64,000 nt of DNA, taken from NCBI GenBank assembly GCA_031291645.1, contig JARLIQ010000028.1, forward strand, positions 1-64,000, in the 5' to 3' direction. The position numbers were made by a program, and so were the translations under genes. Origin of the DNA: Caulobacteraceae bacterium. GTDB lineage: Bacteria > Pseudomonadota > Alphaproteobacteria > Caulobacterales > Caulobacteraceae. Under the pieces are notes generated by a model. The model was not told where the DNA came from. It did no database searches and saw nothing but the letters and a program-made list of their open reading frames with translations. This document shows positions 17,119 through 42,163 of this stretch, piece by piece. Within the stretch, counting starts at the first letter, position 1. Every line of letters starts with the position of its first letter.

Positions 17119-18248
17119 GGCGCGGGCGCCGATGACGGACGGACCGGCGGCGCGACGGGCCGATGCGCCGCCGCCGGCTTGACCAGAGCCGTGGGCTTGG
17201 CCGGAGCCCTGGGCTTGGCGCCTGGAGCCGGCTTGGCCCCGGCGACTGGCTTGGCGCCAGAGTCCGGCTTGGCCCCGGAGGCGGGCTTGGCGGCCGGCGC
17301 GGCCTTGGCCGCGGCGGCGGCCTGCAGGCGGGCGGCGATCTCGGCGGCCTCGGCGGGCGACAGCGGCGGCGGCGCGGCCTCGTTCAGCGCCGGCTGGCTG
17401 GCGAGCTGGCTGAAGTCGGTGAACAGCAGGACGCGCACGTAGTCGATCGACCCGTCGTCGCTGTCCAGCCGCACGCGCCAGTCGCCGTCCAGGCCGACCA
17501 CCGCCGTCCCCACCGGCAGGCCGCGCGGCAGGACCCCGCCGTCGCCCGAACTGAGCACCCGGTCGCCGGTCTTCACCGGGTCGGTCCCGCGCATGTAGGA
17601 GAGCTTGGGGTTGGCCCCGCCGTCGCCGGCCAGGATCGCGCGGGCCCCGGTCCGGTCGATCATCACCGGGGTGCGGCTGGCCACGTCGGTCAGGAGCAGC
17701 ACCCGGCTGACCCCCTGGGCGACGCCGACGACGCGGCCGACCAGGCCGTGGTCGCTCATCACCGGGTTGCCGACGGCCACCCCCTTGTCGCGGCCGACGT
17801 CGATCAGCCGGGTGTTGGAGAAGGGGCCGCGCGCGTCGGTGATGGCCTGGCCGGCGACCATGGGGATCGGCGGCTCGGTCCGCAGCCCCAACAGGGCGCG
17901 GAAGCGGGCGTTCTCGTTGGCCAGGGCGATCTCGGCGTCGCGCGTGCGCTCCAGCTCGGTGATCTCGGCATGCAGCCGCCGGTTCTCCGACACGGCGAAG
18001 AAATAGCCCTCGACATAGCCGATCGCGCCGCCGGTCCAGCGCACCGGCGCGGACAGCACCTCGCCGACCGGGTGGGCCACGGTGTCGGCCACGGACTTGG
18101 TCGCGCCATAGGCCTGGGCCTGCAGGGTCTCGCGGCGGTCGCCGAGCAGCAGCGCGACGCCGATGACCGTCGCGACGACCAGCGCGATCGCCGCCGTCCA
18201 GGTCAGCGGGACCTTGAGGTCCTGGAATGGCCCGTCCCTCAGGGACAT
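17115..18248 (-). CDS. mreC: rod shape-determining protein MreC
   Basis: The 377-residue protein has one N-terminal membrane anchor (AAIALVVATVIGVALLLGD), a coiled-coil region about residues 80-110 (ENRRLHAEITELERTRDAEI) and the two-beta-barrel periplasmic domain (ARGPFSNTRLIDVGRDKGV, MSDHGLVGRVVGVAQGVSRVLLLTDVASRTPV, SSGDGGVLPRGLPVGT). The last ~65 residues are a low-complexity tail of repeated Gly-Ala-Lys-Pro units, longer than in E. coli MreC. MreC scaffolds the PBP2-RodA synthase in the periplasm. The stop overlaps the mreD start; a 50-bp gap separates it from mreB. Confidence 0.93.
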   Translation of the reverse strand: MSLRDGPFQDLKVPLTWTAAIALVVATVIGVALLLGDRRETLQAQAYGATKSVADTVAHPVGEVLSAPVRWTGGAIGYVEGYFFAVSENRRLHAEITELERTRDAEIALANENARFRALLGLRTEPPIPMVAGQAITDARGPFSNTRLIDVGRDKGVAVGNPVMSDHGLVGRVVGVAQGVSRVLLLTDVASRTPVMIDRTGARAILAGDGGANPKLSYMRGTDPVKTGDRVLSSGDGGVLPRGLPVGTAVVGLDGDWRVRLDSDDGSIDYVRVLLFTDFSQLASQPALNEAAPPPLSPAEAAEIAARLQAAAAAKAAPAAKPASGAKPDSGAKPVAGAKPAPGAKPRAPAKPTALVKPAAAHRPVAPPVRPSSAPAP

Positions 18249-18298
18249 GCGGCTCGCCTCCGGGCGCTCGGCTGCTCCCGACCTAGCCTAAGGCCGGC

Positions 18299-19342
<1,044 letters not shown>

Positions 19343-20552: not shown

Positions 20553-21998
20553 GCCTGTGAAAGAATCTGATTTGGGGCTGGTCGGTTGGTCTGAAGCCGT
20601 AGGGTTTGGTTGTTGGAGGTTGTTGGCTCAGGCGGCCTGGGCTCGGAGGCGGTGAGCGACCATCAGGTTGTTGGCCAGGGCGTGCCAGAGGGCCGCGGCC
20701 TGGACCTTGGCCAGGCCTCTGAGGGTCAACTGGCCGAGGCCTCGGTTCTTGTAGTGGGCGTGGATGCGCTCGATCAGCTTGCGCCGCCTGAAGACGGCGG
20801 CGGCGTCTTCGGTTCGCATCCGGGCTCGCCAGTCCTGCACCGCCGCCGGCTCCTTGGCCCGCTTGGCGAGGCGCCGGGCCAGAGCGATCGGGGTCAGGGT
20901 CTCATCGGGCTTTTCACCGGCCGGCGGCATGTAGACGCTCACCGGCCCATCGGGATGTTGCGCCAGACCCTCCACGTCGGCTCGCGAGGCGTAGCCTTCG
21001 TCTATCAATAGCCGGCGTGGCGTAACGCCGTAACGGCGCGACACCTCATCCACCATGGGCCGGGCCAGGCCCTGGTCGTTGCGCCGGTCGGTGGCCAGCA
21101 CCGTCACCACCAGTCCCTTGTCGGCGATCGCCACGGTCTGAAGGTTATAGCCGGCCCGCACCGACCCGTCGGCGAAGCGCATCCGGCGCGCCTGCGGATC
21201 GCTCAGCGACACCGACGGCGCGCCCTTGGCCTTCTCTTCCATCGGGTGGCTCTTCTCGCGACGCTTCTTCTCTTCGCGCAGCCGCTCCAGCGTCGCGCGG
21301 GCCTTGTCCACCTTGGCCTGGGCCTCCCGCGCCGCCCGGCGTTGGGCCGCCTGACGCCGCTTCGAACTCGCCGCCGGATCGCCGCTCAGTTCCTGCTTCA
21401 GCCGTTCGATCCGCTCGCCCGCCTGACGCTCGATCCGCTCCAGCCGACCCCCCCGGGTGAACGACCCCGACGAAGCCGAAGCCCGCACCTTCGTGCCGTC
21501 CACCGTCAGTTCTTCCAGCGTCACCAGGCCATCGGCCGCCAACACCGTCACGCTCTCCACCAACAGCCGGTCCAGTTCCTCCGCCCAGCCGACCCGAAAA
21601 TCCGACAGCCCGTGGTAGTTCACCGACACCCCGCCCGCCAGCCACCGGTAGGCCAGGTCCTCGCGCACCAGGCGGTCCAACTCCCGCGCCGAGCCCACAC
21701 CCTCCAGCGTCGCGTAAAGCCACAGCGCCAGAAGAACCCGCGGATCGGCCGCAGGACGGCCAGCCACACCCTCCCGCGAACCGATCGCTTCGTAGAACGC
21801 TCCCAGATCCAGGCCCTCCGCGAACCCCCACACCAGCCGCGCGCGATGATCCGCCGGCAACCACGCCTCCAGATCAACCATGTCCCACGAAGGCTGTGAG
21901 CGATCCGCCTCTACATACCGAGCACCACCAGACATCCGTCCCTCCAGACCTACCCGAAGGGAATCACATCGCCGCCAAATCGGGAATCCTTCACAGGC
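20553..21998. mobile_element. complete IS1182-like insertion sequence
   Basis: The element is 1446 bp long with imperfect terminal inverted repeats of about 24 bp, both beginning GCCTGTGAA and sharing GATTTGG further in. It is flanked by a 4-bp target duplication TCGA (20549-20552 and 21999-22002). Joining the flanks around one TCGA restores a perfect 20-bp palindrome with CCCGGCCT and AGGCCGGG arms, so the element has inserted at the exact centre of a REP-like palindrome. It carries one intact transposase gene and looks recent. Confidence 0.85.
20628..21935 (-). CDS. IS1182-family transposase (DDE type)
   Basis: The 435-residue protein has the N-terminal InsH/DUF772 region (DLEAWLPADHRARLVWGF, GRPAADPRVLLALWLYATLEGVGSARELDRL, NYHGLSDFRVGW) and a DDE_Tnp_1-type catalytic domain. 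Candidate acidic residues are in LTVDGTKVRASAS (first Asp) and LLIDEGYAS (second Asp), and the C-terminal RRRKLIERIHAHYKNRGLGQLTLRGL segment carries the terminal Glu. A basic, charged insertion rich in Lys, Arg and Glu (about residues 165-240) separates the first two. The frame is intact, so the element may be active. Confidence 0.9.
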   Translation of the reverse strand: MSGGARYVEADRSQPSWDMVDLEAWLPADHRARLVWGFAEGLDLGAFYEAIGSREGVAGRPAADPRVLLALWLYATLEGVGSARELDRLVREDLAYRWLAGGVSVNYHGLSDFRVGWAEELDRLLVESVTVLAADGLVTLEELTVDGTKVRASASSGSFTRGGRLERIERQAGERIERLKQELSGDPAASSKRRQAAQRRAAREAQAKVDKARATLERLREEKKRREKSHPMEEKAKGAPSVSLSDPQARRMRFADGSVRAGYNLQTVAIADKGLVVTVLATDRRNDQGLARPMVDEVSRRYGVTPRRLLIDEGYASRADVEGLAQHPDGPVSVYMPPAGEKPDETLTPIALARRLAKRAKEPAAVQDWRARMRTEDAAAVFRRRKLIERIHAHYKNRGLGQLTLRGLAKVQAAALWHALANNLMVAHRLRAQAA

Positions 21999-22164: not shown

Positions 22165-23286
22165 CTAAGCCGGCAGGGCCTCGGGCTGGCGGGCGGCGTT
22201 GAGCTGTTCGATCGGGACGTAGTCCTCGTCCAGGCCGAACATCCTGGGGCCCAGCACGTCCAGGCTCTCGGGCAGGCGCAGCAGCGGGTCGGCCGCATAG
22301 CCCAGCACCTTCACCCTCTGGCCATAGGCCAGCATCTCGCCGGTCAAGGGCTCGCCGGTCTCCCGGTCGAGCACGCTGATCAGGTCGGGGACGATGGTCA
22401 CCGTCCTGCCGTTCAGCCGGGCGACGGTGAATTCGTTCTGGAAGTCGATGGTGAAGACGTCCGGCCCGTCGCCCAGCGGGCTCATGGTCGCGCGGCCCCA
22501 GTGCCAGCCGTCGCGCATCTCGTGGGTGACGTCGACGATCTTGCCGTCGAACAGGATGGTCGCCAGCCGGCCGTCGCGGCCCAGATAGGCCAGCAGGTCG
22601 CCGAACAGGTCCTCCGAGCGCTCGCGTCCCTGGCGGATCACCCGCCCGATCTGCAGCGTCTGGTCGATGGTGCCGAGCACCGCCGAGGCCTTCATCTGCT
22701 TGCCGCTCATCGGATAGAGGGCGCAGTAGGTCATGGCGCCCAGGGTTCCGGTCACGGCGCGGATCGCGTCCTCGGCGGTGCGGTCGTCGACGGTCTCCAG
22801 GGTGAAGACGTTGCCCAGTTCGTCCATGACGATGCCCGGCGTCGCCTTGACCCCGAAGATGGAGAAGGTGGTCATCTCGATGTGCGGGATGGCGCGGCCG
22901 ACGCCGTCGGCGTCCACCACCGGCACCCCGCTGATCGCCGAGAGGGCCAGCGGGAACATCGAATTGGCCCCGCCGATCTCGGCGCTGATCAGCACGTCGA
23001 CCCGGCGGCCGTAGAAGGCCTCGGCGCGGGCCAGCAGCCTCAGCAGCAGCTTTTCGCTGACCAGGTGCTCGATCAGCACCGGGGGCGCGCCGACGCCGGC
23101 GATGGACAGGACGAAGGCGTCGTCGTCCACCTCGGACGGGTCGACCACCTTGGCCTTGCGCCCGCGCTGCATCTGGGCGCGCAGGAACAGCTCGCCGACA
23201 TAGGGGTCGCCGCCGCCGCCGGTGCCCAGCAGCACCGCGCCGCGGGCCATGTCCTGGATGTCCTGATCGGTCTCGACCGTTCGCAT
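22165..23286 (-). CDS. DUF917 protein (S-methyl-thiohydantoin desulfurase-like)
   Basis: The 373-residue protein matches DUF917, a family now associated with thiohydantoin desulfurase activity. It opens with the glycine-rich LLGTGGGGDPYVGELFLRAQM and continues with VLSIAGVGAPPVLIEHL, ISAEIGGANSMFPLALSAISGVPVVDADGVGRAIPHIEM and a C-terminal domain starting near LGTIDQTLQIGR. It follows the hydantoinase-A-like gene after 41 bp on the same strand, the arrangement usual for this pair. The reaction, removal of sulfur from a thiohydantoin or a related ring step, is inferred from the family and not shown by this sequence. Confidence 0.85.
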   Translation of the reverse strand: MRTVETDQDIQDMARGAVLLGTGGGGDPYVGELFLRAQMQRGRKAKVVDPSEVDDDAFVLSIAGVGAPPVLIEHLVSEKLLLRLLARAEAFYGRRVDVLISAEIGGANSMFPLALSAISGVPVVDADGVGRAIPHIEMTTFSIFGVKATPGIVMDELGNVFTLETVDDRTAEDAIRAVTGTLGAMTYCALYPMSGKQMKASAVLGTIDQTLQIGRVIRQGRERSEDLFGDLLAYLGRDGRLATILFDGKIVDVTHEMRDGWHWGRATMSPLGDGPDVFTIDFQNEFTVARLNGRTVTIVPDLISVLDRETGEPLTGEMLAYGQRVKVLGYAADPLLRLPESLDVLGPRMFGLDEDYVPIEQLNAARQPEALPA

Positions 23287-23327
23287 GACCGCCTGCTGCT
23301 CCCTGGATACTCTGATACGCGCCCGGC

Positions 23328-24893
23328 TCAGGCCAGCGCCGCGACGGGGCCGACGGCCCGAACCTTGATCTGAACGCTGCCGGTCCGCATGTGGGTCATC
23401 GGCAGTTCGATCACCTCCAGCACCTCGACCTCGCTCTCCAGCGCCCCGGAGGCGACCGCCGCGCGGACCGCCTCGGCCTTGGCCTGGGCCAGAGCCGCCT
23501 CGCGGCCGAGGGTCCCGACGTCATAGAGCTTGTCGACCCGGCCGCTGGCCAGGGCGATCGCCGCGCCGACGGCGTTGGCGACCTCGGCGTGCGCCGGGCG
23601 CAGCACCTGGGAGGCGCCGCGCAGGTCGCGCGAGACCAGCACCGAGCCGCCGCCGACCAGCACCAGCGGCATGGGCTTGGGACTGGTCTTCACCTGGTCG
23701 ACCGCGTCCTCGATCTTGGCGTGCATCACGTCCAGCGCCGCCTGGACCAGGGCCTCGGGCAGGTCGGCGACGCGCGAGGGATCGCCGATCACCGCCTGGC
23801 CGGCGCGCACGGCGATGTCGGTCGCGGTCAGGACGGAGCCGCCGAACACCCGCGCCTCGGTCTGCAGCCTGAAGCCGACCGATTGCGGTCCGACGGTCAG
23901 GTGGCCGACGTCGCCCTCGACCCGGCTGCCGCCGCCCAGGCCGATCGACAGCACGTCCGGCATGCGGAAGTTGGTGCGCACCCCGCCGATGGTGTTGGCC
24001 GCCGTGGTCTCGCGCGGGAAGCCGCGGAGCAGGAAGCCGATGTCGGTGGTGGTGCCGCCGATGTCGGCCACGATCGCCTCGTCCAGCCCGGTCAGGAAGG
24101 CCGCGCCGCGGATCGAATTGGTCGGGCCGGCCGAGCAGGTGAGGATCGGGAAGCGCTCGGCGGTCTCGGTCGAGATCAGCGTCCCGTCGTTCTGGCTGAT
24201 GAACACCGGCGCTGCGATGTTCAGATCACGGAAGGCCTGGACCAGCGAGCGGACCACGCTGACCGACAGGTCCGCCAGCGAGGCGTTGATGATCGCCGCG
24301 TTCTCCCGCTCGATCAGGCCCATGCCGCCGACCTGGGCCGACAGGGTGATGCGCGCGTCCGGGATCACCGAGCGGACGACCTTGGCCGCGCGCTCTTCCA
24401 GGTCCGGCCGGATCGGGGCGAAGTTGGCCGAGATCGCCACGGCCTTGAAGCCCTTGTCGCGGGCGTCGATGGCCGCCGCGCGCAGGGCGTCCTCGTCCAG
24501 CGGCGCATAGTCCTTGCCGGTGTAGTAGGAGCCGCCGCCGACCATGTAGATCTCGGACCGCAGCGCGGCCGTCAGGTCGTCGGGCCAGGCCGCCATCGGC
24601 GGCACGCCGTCCGCCTTGGGCAGGGAGGCGCGGAACACCGCCACCGGCGCCAGGTTCGCCCGCTGGACGAAGGCGTTCACGAACTGGGTCGTGCCGATCA
24701 TCACCGCTTCGATGTCGGCCCGGTCCTGTCCCGCCTTGTCCAGGAGGCGCGTGACCGAGTTGATCACGCCCTCCCGCACGTCGGCGCTGGTGAAGGCCTT
24801 GGCCGAAGCCACGACCTCCCGGCCGGCCATCAGCACCGCGTCGGTGTTGGTGCCGCCGACATCGACGCCGAGCCGGAACCTTTGTCTCGTCAT
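23328..24893 (-). CDS. hydantoinase/oxoprolinase subunit A-like protein (short, ~520-residue form)
   Basis: This 521-residue protein has the actin-like ATPase fold of HyuA. The N-terminal RLGVDVGGTNTDAVLM and the internal AIVADIGGTTTDIGFLLRG are the two phosphate loops, and GLGGGSRV and VLVGGGSVLVSRDL complete the nucleotide site. HyuA-type enzymes hydrolyse hydantoin or oxoproline rings with ATP. This is the short version that pairs with a DUF917 protein rather than with a HyuB subunit; no hyuB is present nearby. A GAGGG site precedes the ATG. It is translated just upstream of the DUF917 gene and downstream of a TonB receptor gene. Confidence 0.88.
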   Translation of the reverse strand: MTRQRFRLGVDVGGTNTDAVLMAGREVVASAKAFTSADVREGVINSVTRLLDKAGQDRADIEAVMIGTTQFVNAFVQRANLAPVAVFRASLPKADGVPPMAAWPDDLTAALRSEIYMVGGGSYYTGKDYAPLDEDALRAAAIDARDKGFKAVAISANFAPIRPDLEERAAKVVRSVIPDARITLSAQVGGMGLIERENAAIINASLADLSVSVVRSLVQAFRDLNIAAPVFISQNDGTLISTETAERFPILTCSAGPTNSIRGAAFLTGLDEAIVADIGGTTTDIGFLLRGFPRETTAANTIGGVRTNFRMPDVLSIGLGGGSRVEGDVGHLTVGPQSVGFRLQTEARVFGGSVLTATDIAVRAGQAVIGDPSRVADLPEALVQAALDVMHAKIEDAVDQVKTSPKPMPLVLVGGGSVLVSRDLRGASQVLRPAHAEVANAVGAAIALASGRVDKLYDVGTLGREAALAQAKAEAVRAAVASGALESEVEVLEVIELPMTHMRTGSVQIKVRAVGPVAALA

Positions 24894-24935
24894 GAACGCC
24901 CTCGAACCTGGACTATTGAGGATTGGCGACGGCGA

Positions 24936-27074
24936 TCAGAAGCGGGCCTGGAGCTCGACGCCATAGGTGCGCGGCTCGGCCAGCGATCCGATGTCGTAGG
25001 GCAGGCCCGAGAACGCCTTGGGATTGTAGTCCTCGTAGTAGCGCACGTTGGTGATGTTCTTGGCCCACAGATAGAGGCCATAGCCGCCGTGCGTCACCCC
25101 GACCCGCCCGTTGACCAGGTCGAGCGGCTTTTGGACGTCGGCGTTGTCGATCTGCCAGTACTTTCGGTCCTGGTGCTCGTAGTCGACGCGGATCATGCCG
25201 TCCCAGCCGTCGGCCACCTCGTGGGTGTACTGGAAGCCGAGGTTCAGCTTCCACGGCACGGTCTTGGGCGTCTTGTGGCCCACGTCCGAGGGGAACAGGC
25301 TCGAGCGGACGATGTCCGAATTGGTGGTGCCGAGGGCGCCGAACAGGTTCAGGCCGTGGACCGGATTGGCCTCGGCCTCCAGCTCCACGCCCCACAGGTG
25401 CACGGCGTCGAGGTTGGCGATGATCTGCGAGGCGGTCAGGGCGTCGACGAAGAAGAACTGGAAGTTATGGTCGTCGGCGTAGAACACGTCGCCGTTCAGG
25501 ATCAGCCGCTTGTCGAACCACTGGGTCTTGATGCCGGCCTCGTAGTTGGTCAGCGTCTCGGCCTTGAACTCGGGGATGCTCACGCCCGGGGCGTTGTAGC
25601 CGCCGGACCGGAAGCCGGTCGAATAGGTGGCGTAGACCAGGGCTTGCGGATCGATGTGGTAGGTCAGGGTGACCTTGGGCTGCGGGTTGCTGAAGGTCTT
25701 GGTCCGCACCAGGCCGGAGTTGACGTCGAGCTGGCGGCGCTGGTCGGCGTCGTAGCGCAAGGCGCCGGTCACGGTCAGCTGCGAGGTGATGTCGTAGTCG
25801 GCCTGGCCGAAGATGGCGCCCGCCTGGTTCCGGTCGCTCTCGGACTTGTCGATGATCCGGATCGAGGGATCGTTGAACTGCGAGGGCGAGTGGTTCAGGT
25901 CGAAGAAGCCGCGGGTCAGCAGGCTGCGGTCCTCGTGGACGTAGTAGGCGCCGACGATCCAGCGGAAGCGGCCCGTGGACGGCGAGGTCAGGCGCAGCTC
26001 CTCGCTGACCGTCTTGTCGTTCAGGTTCTGGCCCTGGCCGAGCGGGCCGTAGCCGAACAGGCCGCTGGGATTGTTCACCGGGTTGGTGAAGTCCAGGTCC
26101 CCGCGATAGTCCTCGCGCAGGTTGGTGTAGCCGGTGATGCTGGTCAGCGTCAGGTCGCTCAGCTTGGCGTCGATCTTCAGCGTGCCGTCGGCGATGAAGC
26201 CCTTGGTCTGGCCGAGGAAGTCGCTGGTCGGCGACTGGATGTCGTTCGCATTGCCGCTGAACACGGCGCTGTCCCAGGTCGCCCCGCCCTTGAAGGCGTT
26301 GTAGCCGCCGCGCAGGTCCACCGTCACCTTGTCGGTCGGATAGGCCAGCAGCCGGGCGCGCAGGCTGTCGTCGTACTTCACCTGGTCGACGTTCTTGCCG
26401 ACGTAGGTGTTCTCGATCCGCCCGCCGTCGCCCTTCACGTCGGCGGCGACGCGGAACAGCAGCTTGTCGGCGACGATCGGGCCGGACACGCTGGCGATGC
26501 CGCTGGCGTAGTTCCCGTTGCCATAGTCCAGCTGGCCGTAGCCCTGGAAGGTGTTCGACGGCGCCTTGGTGTTGATGATCATCGCCCCGCCGATGGCGTT
26601 GCGGCCGTAGAGGCCGCCTTGCGGGCCGCGCAGGACTTCGACCTGGTCGACGTCGAACAGGTCCATCAGCGCCTGCTTCTGGTTGTTCTGCGGCACCCCG
26701 TCCACGACGATCGACAGCGGCGAGTCGGCGTTGTTGATCTCGGCCACGCCGCGGATCACCACGAACGAGTTCAGGAAGGTGAAGGAGTGGTCCATCGACA
26801 CGTTCGGCACCAGGCCCAGGGCGTCCTGGGTGGTGTGGACATTGGCGGTGGTCAGCTGGGCCCCGGACAGGGCGGTGACCTGGATCGGCACCTGCTGGAT
26901 GTTCTCGGACCGCTTCTGGGCCGTCACCACCACCTCGCCCAGGGTCTCAGCCCCTGCGGCGGCGGCCGGCGCGGCCGGCGCGGTCTCGGCCAGGGCCGGC
27001 GTTCCCGCCAGGCCCGCGAAGCATCCCGCCGCGGTGGTCGCCAGCAGCGTCTTCAGCACGCTCATCTTTCGCAC
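24936..27074 (-). CDS. TonB-dependent outer-membrane receptor (hydantoinase cluster)
   Basis: The protein has 712 residues from a GTG at 27074, chosen because GAGGGG lies 8 bases upstream; an ATG at 27065 in the same frame is the alternative. A signal peptide (LLATTAAGCFAGLAGTPALA) precedes a TonB-box-like LGEVVVTAQKRSENIQQVP and a plug with LRGPQGGLYGRNAIGGAMIINT. The barrel ends in YGVELQARF, a terminal Phe signature. It is 42 bp upstream of the hydantoinase gene on the same strand, so it probably imports the compound that those enzymes degrade. Confidence 0.9.
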   Translation of the reverse strand: MRKMSVLKTLLATTAAGCFAGLAGTPALAETAPAAPAAAAGAETLGEVVVTAQKRSENIQQVPIQVTALSGAQLTTANVHTTQDALGLVPNVSMDHSFTFLNSFVVIRGVAEINNADSPLSIVVDGVPQNNQKQALMDLFDVDQVEVLRGPQGGLYGRNAIGGAMIINTKAPSNTFQGYGQLDYGNGNYASGIASVSGPIVADKLLFRVAADVKGDGGRIENTYVGKNVDQVKYDDSLRARLLAYPTDKVTVDLRGGYNAFKGGATWDSAVFSGNANDIQSPTSDFLGQTKGFIADGTLKIDAKLSDLTLTSITGYTNLREDYRGDLDFTNPVNNPSGLFGYGPLGQGQNLNDKTVSEELRLTSPSTGRFRWIVGAYYVHEDRSLLTRGFFDLNHSPSQFNDPSIRIIDKSESDRNQAGAIFGQADYDITSQLTVTGALRYDADQRRQLDVNSGLVRTKTFSNPQPKVTLTYHIDPQALVYATYSTGFRSGGYNAPGVSIPEFKAETLTNYEAGIKTQWFDKRLILNGDVFYADDHNFQFFFVDALTASQIIANLDAVHLWGVELEAEANPVHGLNLFGALGTTNSDIVRSSLFPSDVGHKTPKTVPWKLNLGFQYTHEVADGWDGMIRVDYEHQDRKYWQIDNADVQKPLDLVNGRVGVTHGGYGLYLWAKNITNVRYYEDYNPKAFSGLPYDIGSLAEPRTYGVELQARF

Positions 27075-27191
27075 GATCGATTCCCCTCTGCGCGTCCGGC
27101 AATCCCCTTCCGGACCCGGACGATTAGCGGCGCGCAAGGCGCGCCGATCAACGCGCGAGACGGGTGGCGGCCGGGCCTAGTCGAGTAGCGC

Positions 27192-29924
27192 TCAGCCTGG
27201 ATCGCGCGGCGGGGCCGTCATCCGCGCGGCGGCGGCCACGGCGTCGCGGCGGCTGGTGATGCCCAGCTTGGCGAAGATCCGCTTCATGTGGAACTTGATG
27301 GTGTTCTCGGTCAGGCCGAGGCGCCGGGCGATCAGCTTGTTCGAGGCGCCGTCCCGCAGATAGGCCACGATCTGGGCCTCGCGCTCGTTCAGGGCGTTGA
27401 CCTCGCGGCGGCCGAGGGCCAGGGCGCGCAGCACCGCGTCGGCGTGGCGGCGGGCCGGGACCGGCGCGGCCTCGTCGTCGGCGACCGCCTGGACCAGGGC
27501 CCGGACCGCATCGCCTTCCTCGGCGAAGACCGCCGTCGCCTGCTCGGGCGCGGCAGCGATCAGGGCGGCTTCCATCTGGGCGCGGGCGTCCGCCGTCTCG
27601 CCCTGGGCGGCGCGTGCGAGCGCCTTGAGGATGCGGCCCTTGACCTGGGTGCGCAGCCGCCCGCCGTGTTCGCCGGCGGCGACCAGGGCCTCGGCCTCGG
27701 CCAGCGCCGCGTCCGGCCGCTCGTCTGCGAGGGCCCAGAGCGCCAGGGCGGTCGCGGCCGCGTCGGCGAGCCGCCAGGGCTGCCGTGCGGCGGCCGCGCG
27801 GCTGGCCTGGACCTGGGCGATGGCCGCGCGGGCCTGGGCCGTCTCGCCGGCGCGGATCAGCCAGGCGGCCCGGACCGCGTCCAGCAGCGCCTCGGCGTGG
27901 CGCACGCCCATCGCCCGGATGCGCGCCCCGGCCCGTTCGACGAACCGGTCGAGCTCGGCCGCGCCGCCGCGCCGGTAGGCCACCTCGGCCATCACCGGAT
28001 GGGCGATGGCGTAGGGCTCGAACCAGGTCTCGGCCTCGCCGAGCTGTTCCAGCCCCTCGCGCAGGCCCTCGGCAGCGTCCTCGACGAAGCGGCGCTCGTA
28101 GTCGCTGGCCGCGCCCGCCAGCCTGGCCATGGCTAGCATCGGCAGGTCGCTGGCCAGGTCGCCCAGCCTGAACCGCCGCATGGTCGCGGCCAGGTCGGCG
28201 GCGCGGCGGTAGGCGCCCTCGGCCAGGGCCAGGAAGGACTCGTGGTTCGGCAGCCAGAAGTCGGCGAACCGCGTGACGCCGCTGCCCGCATAGATCGCCT
28301 TGCTGCGCGCCAGGGCCTCGCGCGAGGCGGCCAGCTCGCCGCGCTGCTCGAGGATGACGATCATGATGTTCTCGCTCCAGGCCCACATCAGCGCGTCGTC
28401 CGGCGCGCTGGCCCGGATCGCCGCGGTCAGCGGCGCGTCGTCGACCTCAGGCCCGTCGATATAGCCGCCGATCAGCAGCTCCAGCGCGCGGGCCTCGACC
28501 TGGAAGGCGGCGGTATGGCCGTGCGGGTCGAGCGCGAAGTCGCCGGTCTCCGCGCGCACGGCCTCCAGCATTGCCCGACCTACGAGGAAGAAGCCGGACT
28601 TGAAGGCGACCAGCGCCGCCATCAGCCGCAGCCTCGGGTGGGCCGCGACCTGCTCGGGCGACAGGCCGCGCAGGATCGCGCGCAGCTCGCCGATCCCGGC
28701 GTCGAGGAAGACGTGCAGCGGCCGCAGGTCGGCGAGGAGCCGGGTCAGGAAGGCCGGGTCGGCCGCCGCCTGGGCGTGGGCGACGGCGTCCGGATAGCGG
28801 CGCGTCTGTTCGAACCACAGGGCCGCGCGGCGGTGCAGCTCGTGGGCGTGGGCGGCGGACAACTCGGCCCGGCCGCGGGCGTAGTCGACCAGCAGCGGGT
28901 GGATGCGGTAGCTCGGCTCGGCGGGATCGGCCCCACGTTCGACGAGTCCTGGCAGGGCGGCGCCCAGCTGGTCGAGCAGCAGGCCGCTGTCCTCGCGCCC
29001 GCGGACGTGGTCGACCAGGGCCGGCTCGACCTCGCTGAAGATCGACAGGTCGACCAGCAGCCGCTGGTGTTCGGGCTCCAGGGTGGCGAACACCTGCTCG
29101 GCCAGATAGTCGGCGACGTCGCCCGAGCGGCCGCTGAAGAGGGCCGAGAGGCCGTCCGCCCCGCCGGTCCGCTCGCGCCAGAGCCGGAACAGTTCGACCG
29201 CCACCGGCCAGCCCTCGGTCCGCTCCGCGATCACCGCCAGGTCCGGGCTGTCGGCGTCCAGCGCCAGAAGGGCGGTGATCTCGTCCGGCCCAAAGCGCAG
29301 TTCGGCGGTGTCGATGGTCCGCACCGCGCCCTGGGCGATCAGGGCGGAGACCGCCAGCCGTGGCTTGCGCCGTGCGCTCAGGGCGACGTGGACCCGTTCG
29401 GGGGCGGTCTCGACCAGAGCCTGGATCAGGGCGTTGGTCGCCGCCGTCTCGGCCCGGTCGAAGCCGTCGACGATCAGCACCACGTCGGTCTCGGCGAGCT
29501 CCAGCGCCAGGAGGATGGCGTCGAGCGCTATGGCCGGATCGGCGTCCAGGCTGTCCAGAAGGCCGGTCGCGGTCATGTCGACGCCGGCCCGGTGCAGGGC
29601 GCTCGCCAGCATGTGCAGGAAGGCGGACGGCTCGCGCTCGCGCTCGACCGCGGAATACCAGGCGACCTTGATCCCCGCGGCCAGCAGCCGCTCGCGCCAT
29701 TGGGCCAGGGCGGTGGTCTTGCCGGCGCCGGGCGGACCGACGAGCTGGGTCAGCCGGCCGGCCCGGGCGACGTCCAGCGAGCGCAGCACCAGGGTCCGCT
29801 CGATCTGGCGGGTTCGGGTGCGGCCGGGGGCGAGGCGGGCGGTCTCCAGCGGACTGCGGCGCCGCGCGGTGGCCGCCGTCGTCTCCGGTCCGGTGGTCGG
29901 CTTTTCGGGAGCCCCCTGGTCCAT
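27192..29924 (-). CDS. MalT-like LuxR-family ATP-dependent regulator (LAL type)
   Basis: The 910-residue protein has the architecture of MalT/LAL regulators. An N-terminal STAND/AAA-like ATPase starts with LTQLVGPPGAGKTTALAQW (Walker A, about residues 60-75) and has TDVVLIVDGFDRAE (Walker B, about 150). The middle is a long alpha-helical, TPR-like region. The C-terminal LuxR helix-turn-helix reads LNEREAQIVAYLRDGASNKLIARRLGLTENTIKFHMKRIFAKLG. Such proteins bind a ligand, oligomerise with ATP and activate transcription. A strong AAGGAGG precedes the ATG. Position next to the receptor-hydantoinase genes suggests it controls that cluster. Confidence 0.9.
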   Translation of the reverse strand: MDQGAPEKPTTGPETTAATARRRSPLETARLAPGRTRTRQIERTLVLRSLDVARAGRLTQLVGPPGAGKTTALAQWRERLLAAGIKVAWYSAVEREREPSAFLHMLASALHRAGVDMTATGLLDSLDADPAIALDAILLALELAETDVVLIVDGFDRAETAATNALIQALVETAPERVHVALSARRKPRLAVSALIAQGAVRTIDTAELRFGPDEITALLALDADSPDLAVIAERTEGWPVAVELFRLWRERTGGADGLSALFSGRSGDVADYLAEQVFATLEPEHQRLLVDLSIFSEVEPALVDHVRGREDSGLLLDQLGAALPGLVERGADPAEPSYRIHPLLVDYARGRAELSAAHAHELHRRAALWFEQTRRYPDAVAHAQAAADPAFLTRLLADLRPLHVFLDAGIGELRAILRGLSPEQVAAHPRLRLMAALVAFKSGFFLVGRAMLEAVRAETGDFALDPHGHTAAFQVEARALELLIGGYIDGPEVDDAPLTAAIRASAPDDALMWAWSENIMIVILEQRGELAASREALARSKAIYAGSGVTRFADFWLPNHESFLALAEGAYRRAADLAATMRRFRLGDLASDLPMLAMARLAGAASDYERRFVEDAAEGLREGLEQLGEAETWFEPYAIAHPVMAEVAYRRGGAAELDRFVERAGARIRAMGVRHAEALLDAVRAAWLIRAGETAQARAAIAQVQASRAAAARQPWRLADAAATALALWALADERPDAALAEAEALVAAGEHGGRLRTQVKGRILKALARAAQGETADARAQMEAALIAAAPEQATAVFAEEGDAVRALVQAVADDEAAPVPARRHADAVLRALALGRREVNALNEREAQIVAYLRDGASNKLIARRLGLTENTIKFHMKRIFAKLGITSRRDAVAAAARMTAPPRDPG

Positions 29925-30006
29925 GACCCTCCTTAGGGGAGCGAGCGCATCCGGCTCAAGGTTCCCAGGGTTGTAGCCGGTGGGCGTGTGGTCGCAGGCG
30001 CGGGGC

Positions 30007-31230
30007 TCAGGCCAGGGCGTTCTTGCACAATTCGCCCTCCCTGATGATCACCGCGAGACGGGCCGGATCCTCCAGCACCGCGATGTCGGCCAGGGGGTCG
30101 CCGTCGACCACCAGGATGTCGGCCAGGGCGCCGTCGGCGATCACGCCCAGTTCGCCGTCCTTCTTCAGGATGGCGGCGTTGACCGAGGTGGCCTGCTTCA
30201 GGATCTCGATCGGCTCGCAGACCTGGCGGCGCAGCGAGAATTCGCTCGACTGCAGCGGCATCAGCTCGCCCAGCAGGTCGGTGCCGAAGCCGATCTTCGC
30301 GCCGGCCTGGCGCAGGTGGTCGATGGCGGTCAGGGCGTGGCGCTCGACCTCGGCCAGCTTGTCCAGCGAGGCCTGCGGCAGGCCGAGCCTGGCGCCGGAC
30401 CGCTTGATCCCGTCCATGATCGCCAGGGTCGGCACGGCGAAGGCGTCGTGCGCCGCGATCTCGCGGGCGCCGTCGGCTTCGAGCAGGGTGGCGTGCTCGA
30501 TGGTCCGAACGCCATTGCGCACACAGCGGATCGCCGCCTCGTTGGTGTGGGCGTGGGCCATGACGTAGGCCCGGCGGGTGGCCGCCTCCTCGACCGCGAC
30601 CCGGATCTCCGCCTCGCAGAACTGGTTCATCCAGATCGGATCGCTCGGCGACAGCACCCCGCCGGAGACGAACAGCTTGATCTGGCTGGCGCCCTGGCGG
30701 AGCTGTTCGCGCACCAGCTTGCGCATCTCGTCCGGCCCGTCGGCGATGACCGACAGCGAGCCGCAGTAGCCGCAGGCGCAGCCGTCGAAATGGTCCGGCG
30801 CGCGCATGTCGCCGTGGCCGCCGGTCTGGCTGAGCGCCAGGCCGGGGTAGAACAGCCGCGGCCCCTTGATCAGCCGCAGGCGCAGGCCGGCCGCCAGGGC
30901 CGCGTCGCCCCCCGCCGCGTCGCGCAGGCTGGTGAAGCCGCGCATCAAGGCGTCCTCCAGGATGCGCCGGGCGTGCAGGGCGCGAAGGGCGGGCGCCTGC
31001 CGGTCGATGGTCGCCGGATTGAGGTCCGAGCCATAGGCGTGGAAGTGGGCGTCGATCAGGCCGGGCATGACGAAGCGCCCGCCGAGGTCCAGCACCGGCG
31101 CGTCCGAGCCCGCGAACGGCCTGTCGGACACCTCGCGGATGCGGTCGCCCTCGACGAAGACGAAGGCCCGCTCGCGCACCACGTCCGAGACGCCGTCGAA
31201 CAGGCGGCCATTGGCCAGGATCAGCGCCAT
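30007..31230 (-). CDS. metal-dependent amidohydrolase (imidazolonepropionase/prolidase-like)
   Basis: The 407-residue protein starts at 31230 (MALILANGRLFDGV), with GCGAGG upstream; an ATG 45 bases earlier would add a non-homologous tail. Metal-site motifs are complete: GLIDAHFHAYG (HxH), QIKLFVSGG (bridging Lys), YVMAHAHTNEA and RTIEHATLLEA (His ligands), and IGFGTDLLGE (Asp). The C-terminal beta-sandwich returns with ADILVVDGDPLADI. Related enzymes hydrolyse dipeptides such as Xaa-Pro, imides or hydantoin-derived amides. An unusual Cys triplet, DGCACGYCGS, lies near residue 150. It belongs to the same strand block as the hydantoinase cluster. Confidence 0.85.
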   Translation of the reverse strand: MALILANGRLFDGVSDVVRERAFVFVEGDRIREVSDRPFAGSDAPVLDLGGRFVMPGLIDAHFHAYGSDLNPATIDRQAPALRALHARRILEDALMRGFTSLRDAAGGDAALAAGLRLRLIKGPRLFYPGLALSQTGGHGDMRAPDHFDGCACGYCGSLSVIADGPDEMRKLVREQLRQGASQIKLFVSGGVLSPSDPIWMNQFCEAEIRVAVEEAATRRAYVMAHAHTNEAAIRCVRNGVRTIEHATLLEADGAREIAAHDAFAVPTLAIMDGIKRSGARLGLPQASLDKLAEVERHALTAIDHLRQAGAKIGFGTDLLGELMPLQSSEFSLRRQVCEPIEILKQATSVNAAILKKDGELGVIADGALADILVVDGDPLADIAVLEDPARLAVIIREGELCKNALA

Positions 31231-31357
31231 TCGGAAAAGCCTCGCACCGCCCTGCGTACGGCCGCTCCAGCGCACGGCTTGGGTCAGCAGACCACGGGCG
31301 CCCGGACCCGCGAAAGCCCGCGGAGTGTGGCGGCGGCGGAAATTGGAGTAGCGGGCC

Positions 31358-32602
31358 TCAGCCGGCGGGTGGGCGGATCTCGCCCGCGGCCAGGCGCATC
31401 AGCAGCAGGGCCGAGAGCTGGGCCCGCTCGACCAGGCTGTCCGTGATCAGGAACTCGTCGCGCGAATGGATCGCCCCGCCGCGGGCGCCCAGGGTGTCGA
31501 CCACCGCCAGCCCCGCCTCGGCCAGGTTGTTGCCGTCGCAGCAGCCGCCCGTCGCCCGCCAGCCGATCGCCTGGCCGAGGTCCGCGCCGCAGCGGCGCAT
31601 GGCCTCGAACAGGGCCCGCGTCGCCGCGTCGAACGGCTTGGGCGGACGGGTGAAGCGGCCGTGCAGCTCCAGGGCCAGATCGCGGCGCGCGCCGACCTCG
31701 GCGGCCAGCCGAGCCAGCTCGGCCTCGATCCAGTGGCGGTCCTCATGGCTCGCGACCCGCGCCTCGAGCCGGCAGAGGGCGAGGTCCGGCACGACGTTGG
31801 TCGGCCCGCCGCCTTCGATCCGCGCGACGTTGACGCTCAGGCCCTCGCGCGCGCCGTTCAGGGCCGCGGCCAGGACCGCGAAATCCGCGGCGGCGACGAT
31901 GGCGTTGCGCCCGGCCTCGGGATTGCGTCCGGCGTGGGCCGAGACGCCCCGCGCGACCAGGGTGAAGGCCGCCAGCCCCTTGCGGGCGCCGGCCAGGAGG
32001 CCCTCGGGCGTGGTCGCGGGCTCGTACACCAGGCCGAGCTGGGCCCGCGACGCGGCTTCGGCCAGCAGAGGACCGGAGCCGAGCGAGGAGACCTCTTCGT
32101 CGGCGTTGATCACCACCTGGTAGCCCAGCCGCCCGGCCCACGGGCTGGCCTCCAGGGCTTCGAGCGCGGCGAGCATGATCATCAGCCCGCCCTTCATGTC
32201 CGCGACGCCCGGGCCGTTGATCACGCCCGGCCCGGTCCAGCGCACCGCCTGGAACGGGTCGTCGGCGGGAAAGACGGTGTCCATGTGGCCGACCAGCAGC
32301 ACCTGCAGCGCCGCCTCCGGACGGACCGCCAGGCGCAGGTTGCGGCCGCGCCGCAGGGGCGTCAGGCGTCCCTCGGCGTCGATCGCCTCGGCCGGCGCGG
32401 GCTCGATCAGGCCCGGCTCGGCGCCCAGCCGGGCGAAGGCCGCCGCAAGCGCCCCGGCCATCCGCTCCAGGCCGGGAAGGTTGGTCGAGCCGCTGTTGAT
32501 CCGCGACCAGCCGATCACGGTCTCGATCATCTCGTCCCGGCGGCCCGCGATCGGCGCCAGGGCGCCGGCTTCCTCGCGGCTGATGGTGTCGGTGAGGGGC
32601 AT
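31358..32602 (-). CDS. M20-family metallopeptidase (carboxypeptidase G2/glutamate carboxypeptidase-like)
   Basis: The protein has 414 residues from the ATG at 32602. The zinc ligands of M20 enzymes are visible in order: LVGHMDTVFPADD (His, Asp), VADMKGGLMIML (Asp), INADEEVSSLGSGP (catalytic and metal Glu), LVYEPATT and GGAIHSRDEF (final His). No signal peptide is evident at this start, so it should act in the cytoplasm. Members cleave C-terminal Glu, acyl or carbamoyl groups from amino acids. Near a hydantoinase and a DUF917 gene, hydrolysis of an N-carbamoyl or N-acyl amino acid is plausible but not proven. Confidence 0.85.
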   Translation of the reverse strand: MPLTDTISREEAGALAPIAGRRDEMIETVIGWSRINSGSTNLPGLERMAGALAAAFARLGAEPGLIEPAPAEAIDAEGRLTPLRRGRNLRLAVRPEAALQVLLVGHMDTVFPADDPFQAVRWTGPGVINGPGVADMKGGLMIMLAALEALEASPWAGRLGYQVVINADEEVSSLGSGPLLAEAASRAQLGLVYEPATTPEGLLAGARKGLAAFTLVARGVSAHAGRNPEAGRNAIVAAADFAVLAAALNGAREGLSVNVARIEGGGPTNVVPDLALCRLEARVASHEDRHWIEAELARLAAEVGARRDLALELHGRFTRPPKPFDAATRALFEAMRRCGADLGQAIGWRATGGCCDGNNLAEAGLAVVDTLGARGGAIHSRDEFLITDSLVERAQLSALLLMRLAAGEIRPPAG

Positions 32603-38328: not shown

Positions 38329-40743
38329 ATGCTCAACCAGCCTCTCGCTACGGCCGTCCGGCCTTCGGCTCCCCTTCATGGTTCCAGGCCGGCTAGCGCC
38401 CGGTTCGCCCTGCGCGCGGCGATGCTGTGCGGCGCGACGGCGCTTTCCACCCTGGCCTGGGCCAACGGCGCGGCGGCGGCGGAAGGCCCCGCCGCGGCCG
38501 GCGCGGGCGTCGGATCGGCCGCCGCGGGCGACGCGGCCGTCGAGGAGATCGTGGTCACCGCCCGTCACCGCTCGGAAGATTCCCAGAAGGTGCCGGCGGC
38601 CCTGGCGGTGGTCGGCGGCCAGTTCCTGGCCAGGACCAACACCACCAACATCGCCCAGGTCGCCCAGTTCGTGCCGAGCATGCAGTTCTCCTTCGTCAAC
38701 GCGCGCAACGCCAACATCAACATCCGCGGCCTGGGCAACAACATCGGCCTGGCCAGCGACGGCATCGATCCGGGCGTCGGCTTCTACGTCGACCAAGTCT
38801 ATTACGACCGGCCGGCGACGGCGACGTTCGACCTGGTGGACATCGACCACGTCGAGGTGCTGCGCGGCCCGCAAGGCACACTGTTCGGCAAGAACAGCAC
38901 CGCTGGCGCGATCGCCATCACCACGTCCAGTCCGACCACGACGCCCAAGGCGACGGCGGAGATCAGCGGCGGGAACTACGGCTACTTCCAGGCCAAGGCC
39001 TCGATCTCGGGCCCCATCGTCGGCGACATCCTCTCCGCCCGCCTGTCGGTGGCCACGACCACGCGCGAGGGCCTGCTGACGAACGTCGGCGACGGCGGAA
39101 ACCGGGTCAACGCCTACCGGAACCAGACCTACCGCGGTCAGATCCTCTACACGCCCACGGCCGACTTCAAGCTGAGGGTCATCGCCGACTACAGCAAGCA
39201 GGACACCAACTGCTGCGACCTGGTGCTGGCCGGCATCGTCACCCCCCCGAACGGCAAGAACTTCGTCGCCTACGCCGAGCACTTCGGCTACACGCCGGTG
39301 GTCAATCCGTTCAGCCGCCAGGCCGACACCAACTCCCAGATTCAGGCGCGCCAGGAGACCGGCGGCATTTCGGCCGAAGCCGACTGGAGCTTGCCCAAGG
39401 CGACCCTGACCTCGATCACCGCCTGGCGCTTCTGGAACTGGTGGCCGGCGAACGATTCCGACTACACCCCGCTGTCGATCCTCACCCGCTCGCAGAACGG
39501 CGACTACCAGAACCAGTTCAGCCAGGAGTTCCGGATCGCCTCGTCGGGCAGCAACCTGATCGACTACGTCGGCGGGCTTTATTTCTTCCGCGAGCAGATC
39601 AACGCGGTCGGCGAGCAGCAGTACGGCAATGCGGCGACCTACTTCCTGCTCAGCCCGGCGCTGCCGTCCCTGGTGGCCAACGGCTACACCCTGAACTACA
39701 CGGGCAGCTTCGACACCACCAGCGTGGCCGCCTTCGGACAGGCGACCTGGCATGTGACCTCGCGCCTGAACCTGACCGGCGGGCTGCGCTACACCTATGA
39801 CCACAAGGATGGCCGGTTCAACCAGGTCGCCTCCGGCGGAACGCCGCTGACGGGTGTGCTGGCCGGCTATGCGAAGTACCGGGCGGCGCTGGGGTCTTCG
39901 ACCGCCTTCAGCGTGACCGACAACAAGGGCGATCTGTCCGGCCTGGCGAACGTCTCCTACCAGGTGACGGACGACGTGCTCGGCTATGTGAACTACGCCC
40001 GCGGCTACAAGTCCGGCGGGCTGAACCTGACCCAGCTGCCGACGGGCGTGAACCCGGTCGTGGCCCCGGAATCGATCGACAGCGTCGAGGCCGGGCTCAA
40101 GACGCGGCTGTTCGACCGCCGCGTGACGCTGAACGCCGACGTCTTCTGGGAAAAGGACGAGAACTACCAGGCCAATATCTACGACACGACCTACGCCAAA
40201 CAGTACCTGTCCAACGTGCCGGAGGTGCGCTCCGAGGGCGTCGAGGTCGACGTGCAGGCCCAGCCGACCGAGCACCTGTCGCTCTATGGGTCCGGGACCT
40301 GGGACGACGCCGTCTATGCCAAGTATCCCAAGGCGCCCTGCGGCCTGGAGAAGATCACCCAGGGCGTCTGCAACCTCAGCGGCGCGGCGCTGGCGGGCGT
40401 GCCCCGCTGGTCGGCGTCGGCGGGCGGCGAATACGACTATCCGCTCGCCCTCGGCGCGCGCGAGACCGAGGCCTACGTCGGCGTGGACTACACCTTCCGC
40501 TCGTCGGTCTACTCGTCGGCCACGGACTCCATCTATTCCAAGCTGCCGTCCCTCAGCCTGGTCAACGCGCGGCTGGGCGTACGCGCCGCGGACCAGCGCT
40601 GGGACGCCTACCTGTGGGCCAAGAACCTGGGCAACGTGAAGTACTTCACCTTCATCAGCGCGGGCGCCGGCAACACCGGACAACTCGTGGCCCAGCTCGG
40701 CGATCCGCAGACCTGGGGCGCGACGCTCCGGGTCCATTACTGA
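38329..40743 (+). CDS. TonB-dependent outer-membrane receptor
   Basis: The 804-residue protein has a long N-terminus with a probable signal segment (AAMLCGATALSTLAWANGAAA), then EEIVVTARHRSEDSQKVPAAL and a plug with LGNNIGLASDGIDPGVGFYVDQVYY and LRGPQGTLFGKNSTAGAIAITT. The barrel ends TWGATLRVHY. The ATG at 38329 is the first start after an in-frame TGA at 38311; there is no strong ribosome site. An arylsulfotransferase-like gene follows after 25 bp on the same strand. The ligand is unknown; sulfated organic compounds are a possibility given that neighbour. Confidence 0.9.
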   Translation: MLNQPLATAVRPSAPLHGSRPASARFALRAAMLCGATALSTLAWANGAAAAEGPAAAGAGVGSAAAGDAAVEEIVVTARHRSEDSQKVPAALAVVGGQFLARTNTTNIAQVAQFVPSMQFSFVNARNANINIRGLGNNIGLASDGIDPGVGFYVDQVYYDRPATATFDLVDIDHVEVLRGPQGTLFGKNSTAGAIAITTSSPTTTPKATAEISGGNYGYFQAKASISGPIVGDILSARLSVATTTREGLLTNVGDGGNRVNAYRNQTYRGQILYTPTADFKLRVIADYSKQDTNCCDLVLAGIVTPPNGKNFVAYAEHFGYTPVVNPFSRQADTNSQIQARQETGGISAEADWSLPKATLTSITAWRFWNWWPANDSDYTPLSILTRSQNGDYQNQFSQEFRIASSGSNLIDYVGGLYFFREQINAVGEQQYGNAATYFLLSPALPSLVANGYTLNYTGSFDTTSVAAFGQATWHVTSRLNLTGGLRYTYDHKDGRFNQVASGGTPLTGVLAGYAKYRAALGSSTAFSVTDNKGDLSGLANVSYQVTDDVLGYVNYARGYKSGGLNLTQLPTGVNPVVAPESIDSVEAGLKTRLFDRRVTLNADVFWEKDENYQANIYDTTYAKQYLSNVPEVRSEGVEVDVQAQPTEHLSLYGSGTWDDAVYAKYPKAPCGLEKITQGVCNLSGAALAGVPRWSASAGGEYDYPLALGARETEAYVGVDYTFRSSVYSSATDSIYSKLPSLSLVNARLGVRAADQRWDAYLWAKNLGNVKYFTFISAGAGNTGQLVAQLGDPQTWGATLRVHY

Positions 40744-40768: not shown

Positions 40769-42163
40769 ATGATCCGCCTTCATCGCGCGGGGCCCTTGCG
40801 GGTCCTGGGACTGGCCGGCCTCGCGGCCGCCAGTCTCGCCGCCGCCGCCGTCGCCGAGCCGAGCGCCTATCCGACCGGCGTCACCCGCTACGACCCCGCG
40901 CAGGCCTACAACGGCTTCGTGCTGTTCGCCGGCCCTGACCAGAAGACCCATCTGATCGACATGGATGGCCACGAGGTCCACACCTGGGACCATCAGGGTT
41001 TCCCCAGCGTGCTGCTCGATCCCGCCCTGGCCGGCGGCGATAAGGGCCACGTGCTGGTCCAGCTCGAGGCCGGCGCCAGCAAGGGCACCGGCGCGGTGCC
41101 CGGCGCGGCGATCTTCGACAACAAGACGATCGGCGAGCTGGACTGGAGCGGCAAGACGGTCTGGAGCTGGGGCGAGCAGGCGCCCGGCGGGGCGGCGAGG
41201 CAGCACCACGACCTGCGCCGCCTGCCCGACGGAAACACCCTGGTGCTGGTCAATGTCCTGCATCCGGTCGCCGGCTTTTCCCTGCCGCAGATCCTCGACG
41301 ACGCCATCTACGAGGTGACGCCCAAGGGCGAGATCGTCTGGCGCTGGCTGGCCTCGGACCACCTGGACGAGTTCGGCTTCACGCCGGAACAGCTGGCCCT
41401 GGTCAAGGCCTCGGGCTCGCCGGACTACCTGCACCTCAACGACATGGCGCCGCTCGGGGCCAATCATTGGGCCGAGGCCGGGGACGTGCGGTTCGCCGCG
41501 GACAACATCATCGTCGACTCCCGCAACGCCAACTTCGTCATCATCATCGACAAGAAGACCGGCAAGGTGGTCTGGCGGCTGGGTCCGAACTTCGCACCGG
41601 GCGAGACCCTGCCCACCGCCGGCGGCGGCGCGCCGAAGTTCCCCCATCCGGTGGAGCAGATCAGCGGCCAGCACGACGCCCACATGATCCCCGAGGGCCT
41701 GCCGGGCGCGGGCGACATCCTGCTGTTCGACAACGAAGGCCCGGCCGGCTATCCGCCCGCGGCGCTGGGCGTCAACGCCGGCTCGCGGGTGCTGGAGATC
41801 GATCCCCCGACCCAGGCGGTGGTCTGGCAGTACTCGGCCGAGGACAGCGGGTCGGCCGGCTGGACCTTCTATTCGTCCTTCATCAGCAGCGCCCGGCGGC
41901 TGCCCAACGGCAACACCCTGATCGACGAGGGGATGAACGGACGGATATTCCAGGTCACGCCCGACCACAGGATCGTCTGGGAATACGTCAGCCCCTACGT
42001 CGCCAAGGCGCCGATCGGCGGGTTCGGTCGGGAGGTGACCAGCAACTGGATCTACCGCGCCCAGCCCGTGCCCTACGCCTGGGTCCCCGACGGGACGCCG
42101 CACGCCGAGACCCCGGTCAGCTCGCCCGATCCGGCCGGCTTCCATGTTCCTGGCGCGCCGTAG
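40769..42163 (+). CDS. arylsulfotransferase-family (ASST-like) protein, exported
   Basis: The 464-residue protein starts with a signal peptide (RVLGLAGLAAASLAAAAVA-EP). The mature part has beta-propeller features of the PQQ/ASST type, with repeated blades such as VHTWDHQGFPSVLL, ARQHHDLRRLPDGNTLVLVN, YEVTPKGEIVWRW, LPNGNTLIDEGMNGRIFQVTPDHRIVWEY. Histidine-containing motifs HHDLRRLPDGNT and QHDAHMIP recall the active-site region of arylsulfate sulfotransferase, which moves sulfate between phenols in the periplasm. AGGAG lies upstream of the ATG. It forms an operon with the preceding TonB receptor gene. Confidence 0.8.
   Translation: MIRLHRAGPLRVLGLAGLAAASLAAAAVAEPSAYPTGVTRYDPAQAYNGFVLFAGPDQKTHLIDMDGHEVHTWDHQGFPSVLLDPALAGGDKGHVLVQLEAGASKGTGAVPGAAIFDNKTIGELDWSGKTVWSWGEQAPGGAARQHHDLRRLPDGNTLVLVNVLHPVAGFSLPQILDDAIYEVTPKGEIVWRWLASDHLDEFGFTPEQLALVKASGSPDYLHLNDMAPLGANHWAEAGDVRFAADNIIVDSRNANFVIIIDKKTGKVVWRLGPNFAPGETLPTAGGGAPKFPHPVEQISGQHDAHMIPEGLPGAGDILLFDNEGPAGYPPAALGVNAGSRVLEIDPPTQAVVWQYSAEDSGSAGWTFYSSFISSARRLPNGNTLIDEGMNGRIFQVTPDHRIVWEYVSPYVAKAPIGGFGREVTSNWIYRAQPVPYAWVPDGTPHAETPVSSPDPAGFHVPGAP

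Follow-up and report, generated by a model that had tools for sequence, protein, structure and literature searches.

The enzymes that hydrolyze cyclic dipeptides, which are abundant microbial and food products, remain unclear according to a 2013 study of 15 peptidases and many strains (PMC3852281). A paper on caprolactamase (PMC6061476) notes that, of the genes annotated as 5-oxoprolinase, many may instead encode caprolactamase or a cyclic dipeptide hydrolase. A survey (PMC11055893) reports that cyclodipeptide-oxidase clusters lacking a synthase are enriched in DUF917, with dipeptide ABC importers and peptidases; its authors interpreted the DUF917 proteins as hydantoinases and took purine metabolism into consideration. 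In Clostridioides difficile, CDR20291_1615-1617 encode a probable permease, a DUF917 protein, and a hydantoinase, for which no function is given in the passage of PMC12915319 that names them. In the collection of papers that we searched for cyclic-dipeptide hydrolases, we found no gene assignment to HyuA–DUF917, and a search on thiohydantoin desulfurases returned nothing useful. Here, we analyzed a 64,000-nucleotide stretch of DNA from a Caulobacteraceae bacterium (the window), in which a short HyuA and a DUF917 protein are encoded within a six-gene cluster that might, we tentatively propose, take up and open a small cyclic amide.

Gene content of the cluster

The six genes lie on the minus strand between 22165 and 32602, all with open frames separated by gaps of 41-82 bases, except that the gap before the TonB receptor is ~126 bases if the later receptor start proposed below is right. 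These frames, the shared strand, and Pfam matches far above cut-off bear out the six-gene grouping made in an earlier note on this DNA. Chance does not account for the grouping, since the same gene set, the M20 gene excepted, recurs across orders and classes. An insertion sequence (IS) transposase gene (DUF772/DDE_Tnp_1_6, Pfam matches above cut-off; 20628-21935, minus strand) adjoins the 3' end of the cluster and falls outside the pathway. Elsewhere in the window, an arylsulfotransferase-family (ASST) protein (40769-42163) is encoded beside another TonB receptor (38329-40743).

The last gene (22165-23286, minus strand) encodes the 373-residue DUF917, or S-Me-THD–like, protein, which matches S-Me-THD_N and S-Me-THD_C with 165.3 and 188.2 bits, respectively (Pfam cut-offs of 27 each). 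The earlier note had this protein desulfurize thiohydantoins. However, it scores only 69.7 bits against a cut-off of 440 on the thiohydantoin desulfurase model and 64.7 against 450 on the S-methyl one, and we rejected this identity on these curated model scores. Its predicted structure (mean pLDDT of 91.3) matches 2O3I, a solved structure from the same family, with a Z score of 40.1 and 24% identity. In an alignment of 63 out of 128 length-filtered proteins, E73, E103, N108, D127, R131, E172, R176, N284, and E285 are invariant, and there is no invariant His or Cys. A HyuB-like fold was considered and rejected, as 2O3I alone rose above noise in Foldseek and VIA-align, an absence that is not proof. 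We propose that DUF917 is the partner of HyuA in ring opening.

The adjacent gene (23328-24893, minus strand) encodes a HyuA with clear Hydant_A_N (119.6 bits, cut-off 25.2) and Hydantoinase_A (115.5 bits, cut-off 22.9) domains. At 521 residues, it is without the C-terminal length of the HyuB-partnered HyuA in the compared loci, which have 681-730 residues, and a Pfam scan detected no Hydantoinase_B domain in any of the six cluster genes. The named residues of its motifs DxGGTNTD (11-18), GTT (67-69), DxGGTxxDxG (277-286), and GGG (320-322 and 414-416) are invariant in a 30-row alignment (30 of 83 proteins passing a length filter). Its scores are 91.9 bits to 6YRA and 93.3 bits on the caprolactamase alpha model, whose cut-off is 1000. 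From these sequence features, we propose that HyuA might be an ATP-dependent amide-activating subunit.

The TonB-dependent receptor (minus strand, 24936-~27065, open frame to 27137) has plug and barrel domains and probably starts at 27065 (M25) rather than 27137, because a signal-peptide–like stretch begins at residue 25. It shows 40-50% identity and at least 475 bits to the receptors found beside HyuA–DUF917 in 14/17 nearest loci (plus L019), compared to at most 32% identity over partial pieces and at most 203 bits for other receptors in the compared loci. The cluster receptor thus appears to be a separate subfamily, dedicated to HyuA–DUF917 loci. Upstream of it, the 910-residue regulator (27192-29924, minus strand) matches GerE, AAA_16, and, more weakly, TPR_MalT. 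On the MalT model NF003420, it scores 195.4 bits (cut-off 537), with the best stretch spanning residues 29-841. It is therefore predicted to have a MalT-like architecture (ATPase, TPR, and LuxR-type DNA-binding domain) without being MalT.

The amidohydrolase (30007-31275, minus strand, 422 residues) matches Amidohydro_1 with 135.5 bits (Pfam cut-off 25) and is of the Sgx9260b/c prolidase kind, with 339.8 bits to 3FEQ/3N2C, 322.9 bits to 3MKV, and 43-44% identity to these solved prolidases. The metal ligands H77, H79, K200, H241, H261, and D333 are all retained, as is the oxyanion H154; what the binuclear metal ligands, the bridging Lys, and the oxyanion His do in prolidases is described in PMC10781821. 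For the nearest characterized relatives, Xaa-Pro dipeptidase activity is reported in PMC11511702. The Tyr that binds the carboxylate in prolidases is, however, His243 in the window protein, and a His occupies this site in 15/15 amidohydrolases linked to HyuA–DUF917; among 20 unlinked relatives, there are 10 Tyr, 9 His, and 1 Leu (L030, with its longer open frame, was left out of alignment A2). Because of this change, strict Xaa-Pro activity is not to be assumed and Xaa-Pro is a guess. Since the solved relatives 9KOV, 2QS8, and 8IHQ also have a His at this site, it is compatible with amide hydrolysis. Relatives of the amidohydrolase are also found without any HyuA. Contig C65 of the same genome (L126, ~9471-10703 and ~18118-19329) carries two more amidohydrolases of the family (45% and 52% identity), one with Tyr and one with His at the carboxylate site; a TonB receptor is present there, and HyuA and DUF917 are absent.

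The M20 metallopeptidase (31358-32602, minus strand, 414 residues) matches Peptidase_M20 with 77.6 bits (Pfam cut-off 24.6) and, as its best model, PRK07338 with 552 bits (cut-off 357). We preferred the start at 32602 over a longer open frame to 32809, because the PRK07338 model begins there. No signal peptide was seen in the protein on inspection by eye, and its nearest characterized relative is carboxypeptidase G2 (92.7 bits). Removal of a carbamoyl group, the role given to it in the earlier note, is not supported, as it scores 32.1 bits on the hydantoinase/carbamoylase model TIGR01879, under the cut-off of 204. Nor could it be upheld as part of a conserved cluster: a search at E 1e-8 found no M20 relatives in the related HyuA–DUF917 loci, so we rejected it as a core member. 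The M20 peptidase is, as judged by this distribution, accessory and does not accompany the remaining cluster genes.

Conservation and diversity of related loci

Related loci were taken as 80 of the 137 relatives from one scan of species genomes. The core set, consisting of short HyuA, DUF917, receptor, MalT-like regulator, and amidohydrolase, recurs in Sphingomonadales, Burkholderiales, and Gammaproteobacteria. Across the 17 nearest loci (L023-L039), where DUF917 is 55-72% identical to that in the window, the amidohydrolase, MalT-like regulator, and receptor subfamily are each found in 14/17. A broader receptor count of 15/17 results from also taking in a distant receptor in L033. The amidohydrolase is missing from three of these loci, two being short contigs (L025 and L039) and one a real absence (L028). 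Gene orders differ among the near loci, a pattern that favors selection on the set over plain inheritance of a single block. A single origin of the amidohydrolase linkage was rejected, since the tree needs three label changes and not one.

Additional genes are found in several near loci. Those of Sphingosinicella also carry M14, M20, and M19 dipeptidase-family genes, where the M20 is nearest to dipeptidase-type models, yet under their cut-offs. An ornithine-cyclodeaminase–family gene is present in L028-L030, L032, and L033, and its product in L030 is near pyrroline-2-carboxylate reductase models, again under cut-offs. In L029, L030, and L032, a HyuA–HyuB–amidohydrolase run faces HyuA–DUF917, with the ornithine-cyclodeaminase–family gene close by, and the amidohydrolase open frame overlaps HyuB by 4, 364, and 4 bases, respectively. 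An amidohydrolase is also near HyuA–HyuB in 2/12 other amidohydrolase loci (L136 and L137), from the same family of genomes. This association suggests that HyuA–DUF917 and HyuA–HyuB feed the same kind of enzyme. By genome name, two of the nearest loci (L024 and L030) come from Sphingosinicella microcystinivorans and Paucibacter toxinivorans, species known for degrading cyanotoxins.

The surroundings of more distant HyuA–DUF917 loci are different. Most of the distant loci (48/61) have three or all four of the oligopeptide-type ABC components that we looked for, compared to 3/40 control stretches, taken in 20 of these genomes as the opening 20 kb of contigs 1 and 2 (some contigs being shorter). 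When only loci of at least 15 kb are considered, such an importer is present in 36/39, compared to 3/32 controls. One of the three importer-positive control stretches itself has a HyuA match. Models for Opp/Dpp-type importers are also named for nickel, opines, and glutathione, so their presence is not peptide-specific proof. None of the 61 distant loci has the amidohydrolase, the window receptor subfamily, or the window MalT type, and a LuxR-type regulator is found in 28/61. Importer and regulator therefore change, while the HyuA–DUF917 pair stays. Permeases of the NCS1 family, a nucleobase/hydantoin type, are encoded in cousin clusters, one of which is in the window genome; according to its Pfam description, the family transports nucleobases and allantoin as well. 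The cousin in the window genome, a second short HyuA–DUF917 pair (contig C114:2890-5526, L003), is followed immediately by an NCS1-type permease and preceded by a TonB receptor, and its DUF917 is ~40% identical to the window copy. Contig C90 (9011-9353, L020) holds a DUF917 remnant that matches in two short segments and has no detected HyuA neighbor; it is perhaps a decayed third copy.

We also looked for cyclodipeptide oxidases as neighbors of the pair in the genomes of 50 of 56 chosen loci (L032, L038, L057, L088, L090, and L100 were left out). Forty-three of the 50 genomes have none. DUF917 and short HyuA are absent from the stretches read at the 7/7 oxidase loci of the others, so this neighbor was rejected, and the result counts against a cyclic dipeptide as the substrate. 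Within these oxidase loci (L148-L154, in seven genomes), a HyuA–HyuB pair is present in 2/7, and M20 and amidohydrolase relatives (28-31% identity) in 2/7.

Origin of the cluster

DUF917 is patchily distributed around the window genome. Any match at all was found in 8/299 genomes sampled from the family, window genome included, and none in the 4/4 other genomes sampled from the genus. A class-wide sample at E 1e-30 gave 30/385 genomes, again including the window genome, and every copy but that in the window is at most 46% identical. Identity to Sphingomonadales proteins reaches 72% for DUF917 and 76% for HyuA, and the window DUF917 groups with Sphingomonadales in a tree (98/99). This patchy presence, the tree placement, and the IS transposase adjoining the cluster suggest horizontal acquisition as the simplest reading.

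Proposed function

The locus joins a conserved, linked set of genes with intact ATP and metal motifs, and its wider family has a peptide-type importer neighborhood. The general idea put forward in the earlier note, a single unit that takes up a substrate, opens its ring, and then cleaves an amide, is supported. We tentatively favor, at a little under an even chance, a horizontally acquired unit that imports a small cyclic amide and uses ATP to open it, the likeliest such amide being a cyclic dipeptide (2,5-diketopiperazine). In the scheme that we infer, as to substrate, catalytic steps, their order, and the direction of regulation, the TonB receptor would import the cyclic amide through the outer membrane. 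Cytoplasmic HyuA would then spend ATP to activate a ring amide, and DUF917, replacing HyuB, would complete hydrolysis to a linear dipeptide. The prolidase-type amidohydrolase would then cleave this dipeptide, possibly assisted by the M20 peptidase, and the MalT-like protein would sense substrate or product and turn the genes on. The chemical argument for cyclo(Xaa-Pro) is based on the mechanism of ATP-dependent oxoprolinases. In cyclo(Xaa-Pro), an N-H is present only on the Pro-CO-NH-Xaa amide, so opening would give Xaa-Pro, which would be, by analogy, the kind of dipeptide cut by the amidohydrolase's nearest characterized relatives.

We favor a cyclic dipeptide because of the oligopeptide importers in the wider family, the several kinds of peptidases in part of the near family, the prolidase-like amidohydrolase, and the associations reported in the PMC11055893 survey, and a peptide-like ring seems likelier than a hydantoin. 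Several features speak against it: the His at the carboxylate site, the absence of the amidohydrolase from all 61 distant loci, the occurrence of its relatives apart from HyuA, the NCS1 permeases of cousin clusters, and the fact that Opp/Dpp-type importers are not peptide only. The family names of HyuA and DUF917 would fit hydantoin catabolism, where the pair would open 5-substituted hydantoins to N-carbamoyl amino acids, to be decarbamoylated by the amidohydrolase, the M20, or a carbamoylase encoded elsewhere. The same NCS1 permeases and the hydantoinase-like reading of DUF917 in PMC11055893 favor this, and one carbamoylase-family gene above cut-off on contig C47 of the same genome makes such breakdown possible. 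We nevertheless consider it unlikely, since the cluster M20 fails the carbamoylase model, no carbamoylase was recognized among the conserved neighbors scanned, and the relatives are surrounded mainly by oligopeptide-type importer and dipeptidase-family genes.

Another candidate, which we hold to be rather improbable, is the opening of a different lactam or N-blocked peptide, such as pyroglutamyl peptides, others that bear a lactam, or fragments derived from larger cyclic peptides. The HyuA relatives include caprolactamase and 5-oxoprolinase, the M20 is carboxypeptidase G2–like, and the neighborhoods are rich in peptidases; yet HyuA is far below the caprolactamase cut-off, and the cluster lacks the HyuB required by caprolactamase and 5-oxoprolinase. 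Breakdown of thiohydantoins, put forward in the earlier note, or of ergothioneine, to which that note drew a comparison, is very improbable. DUF917 does belong to the broad Pfam S-Me-THD families, and a HutH-type lyase is encoded 12 kb from the cluster (45100-46473), but this link through the hut locus is one of proximity only. No second PF00221 protein was found in the genome, and ergothionase is presumably a member of PF00221. The desulfurase scores weigh against thiohydantoins not only for the window DUF917 but also for its C114 paralog (126.8 bits against 450, and 113.6 against 440).

Returning to the cyclic dipeptide, if this reading is true, HyuA–DUF917 would be candidate cyclic-dipeptide hydrolase genes, and a new name would be required for many DUF917 proteins whose current names refer to thiohydantoins. 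More doubtful, though possible, is a wider generalization in which short HyuA and DUF917 form a widespread ATP-driven cyclic-dipeptide hydrolase of bacteria and haloarchaea, with DUF917 as an unrelated second kind of partner replacing HyuB, and the window holds an outer-membrane–receptor form of a modular island that keeps the ring-opening pair and exchanges its importer from host to host.

Comparison with known systems

The cluster resembles several described systems in part. S-methyl thiohydantoin and thiohydantoin desulfurases (NF058532 and NF058529, respectively) share its two DUF917 domains (PF06032 and PF20906), but the window protein is far under both equivalog cut-offs and sits beside a short HyuA. 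The synthase-lacking oxidase clusters of PMC11055893 are similar in their reported DUF917 genes, dipeptide importers, and peptidases; in contrast, no oxidase was found among the window cluster genes scanned, and 0/7 oxidase loci have the HyuA–DUF917 pair. C. difficile CDR20291_1615-1617 comprises permease, DUF917, and hydantoinase genes that adjoin by locus number, with the receptor, MalT, and amidohydrolase going unmentioned in that passage of PMC12915319. The Sgx9260b and Sgx9260c prolidases (3MKV and 3FEQ/3N2C), of the amidohydrolase superfamily, have the metal ligands and oxyanion His in common with the window amidohydrolase and differ from the linked amidohydrolases by the carboxylate-binding Tyr. 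Finally, the HyuA–HyuB enzymes (ATP-dependent hydantoinase, 5-oxoprolinase, and caprolactamase) share the HyuA N-terminal and ATPase domains and the glycine-rich motifs, but their HyuA has ~690 residues compared to ~520 in the window, where DUF917 takes the place of HyuB.
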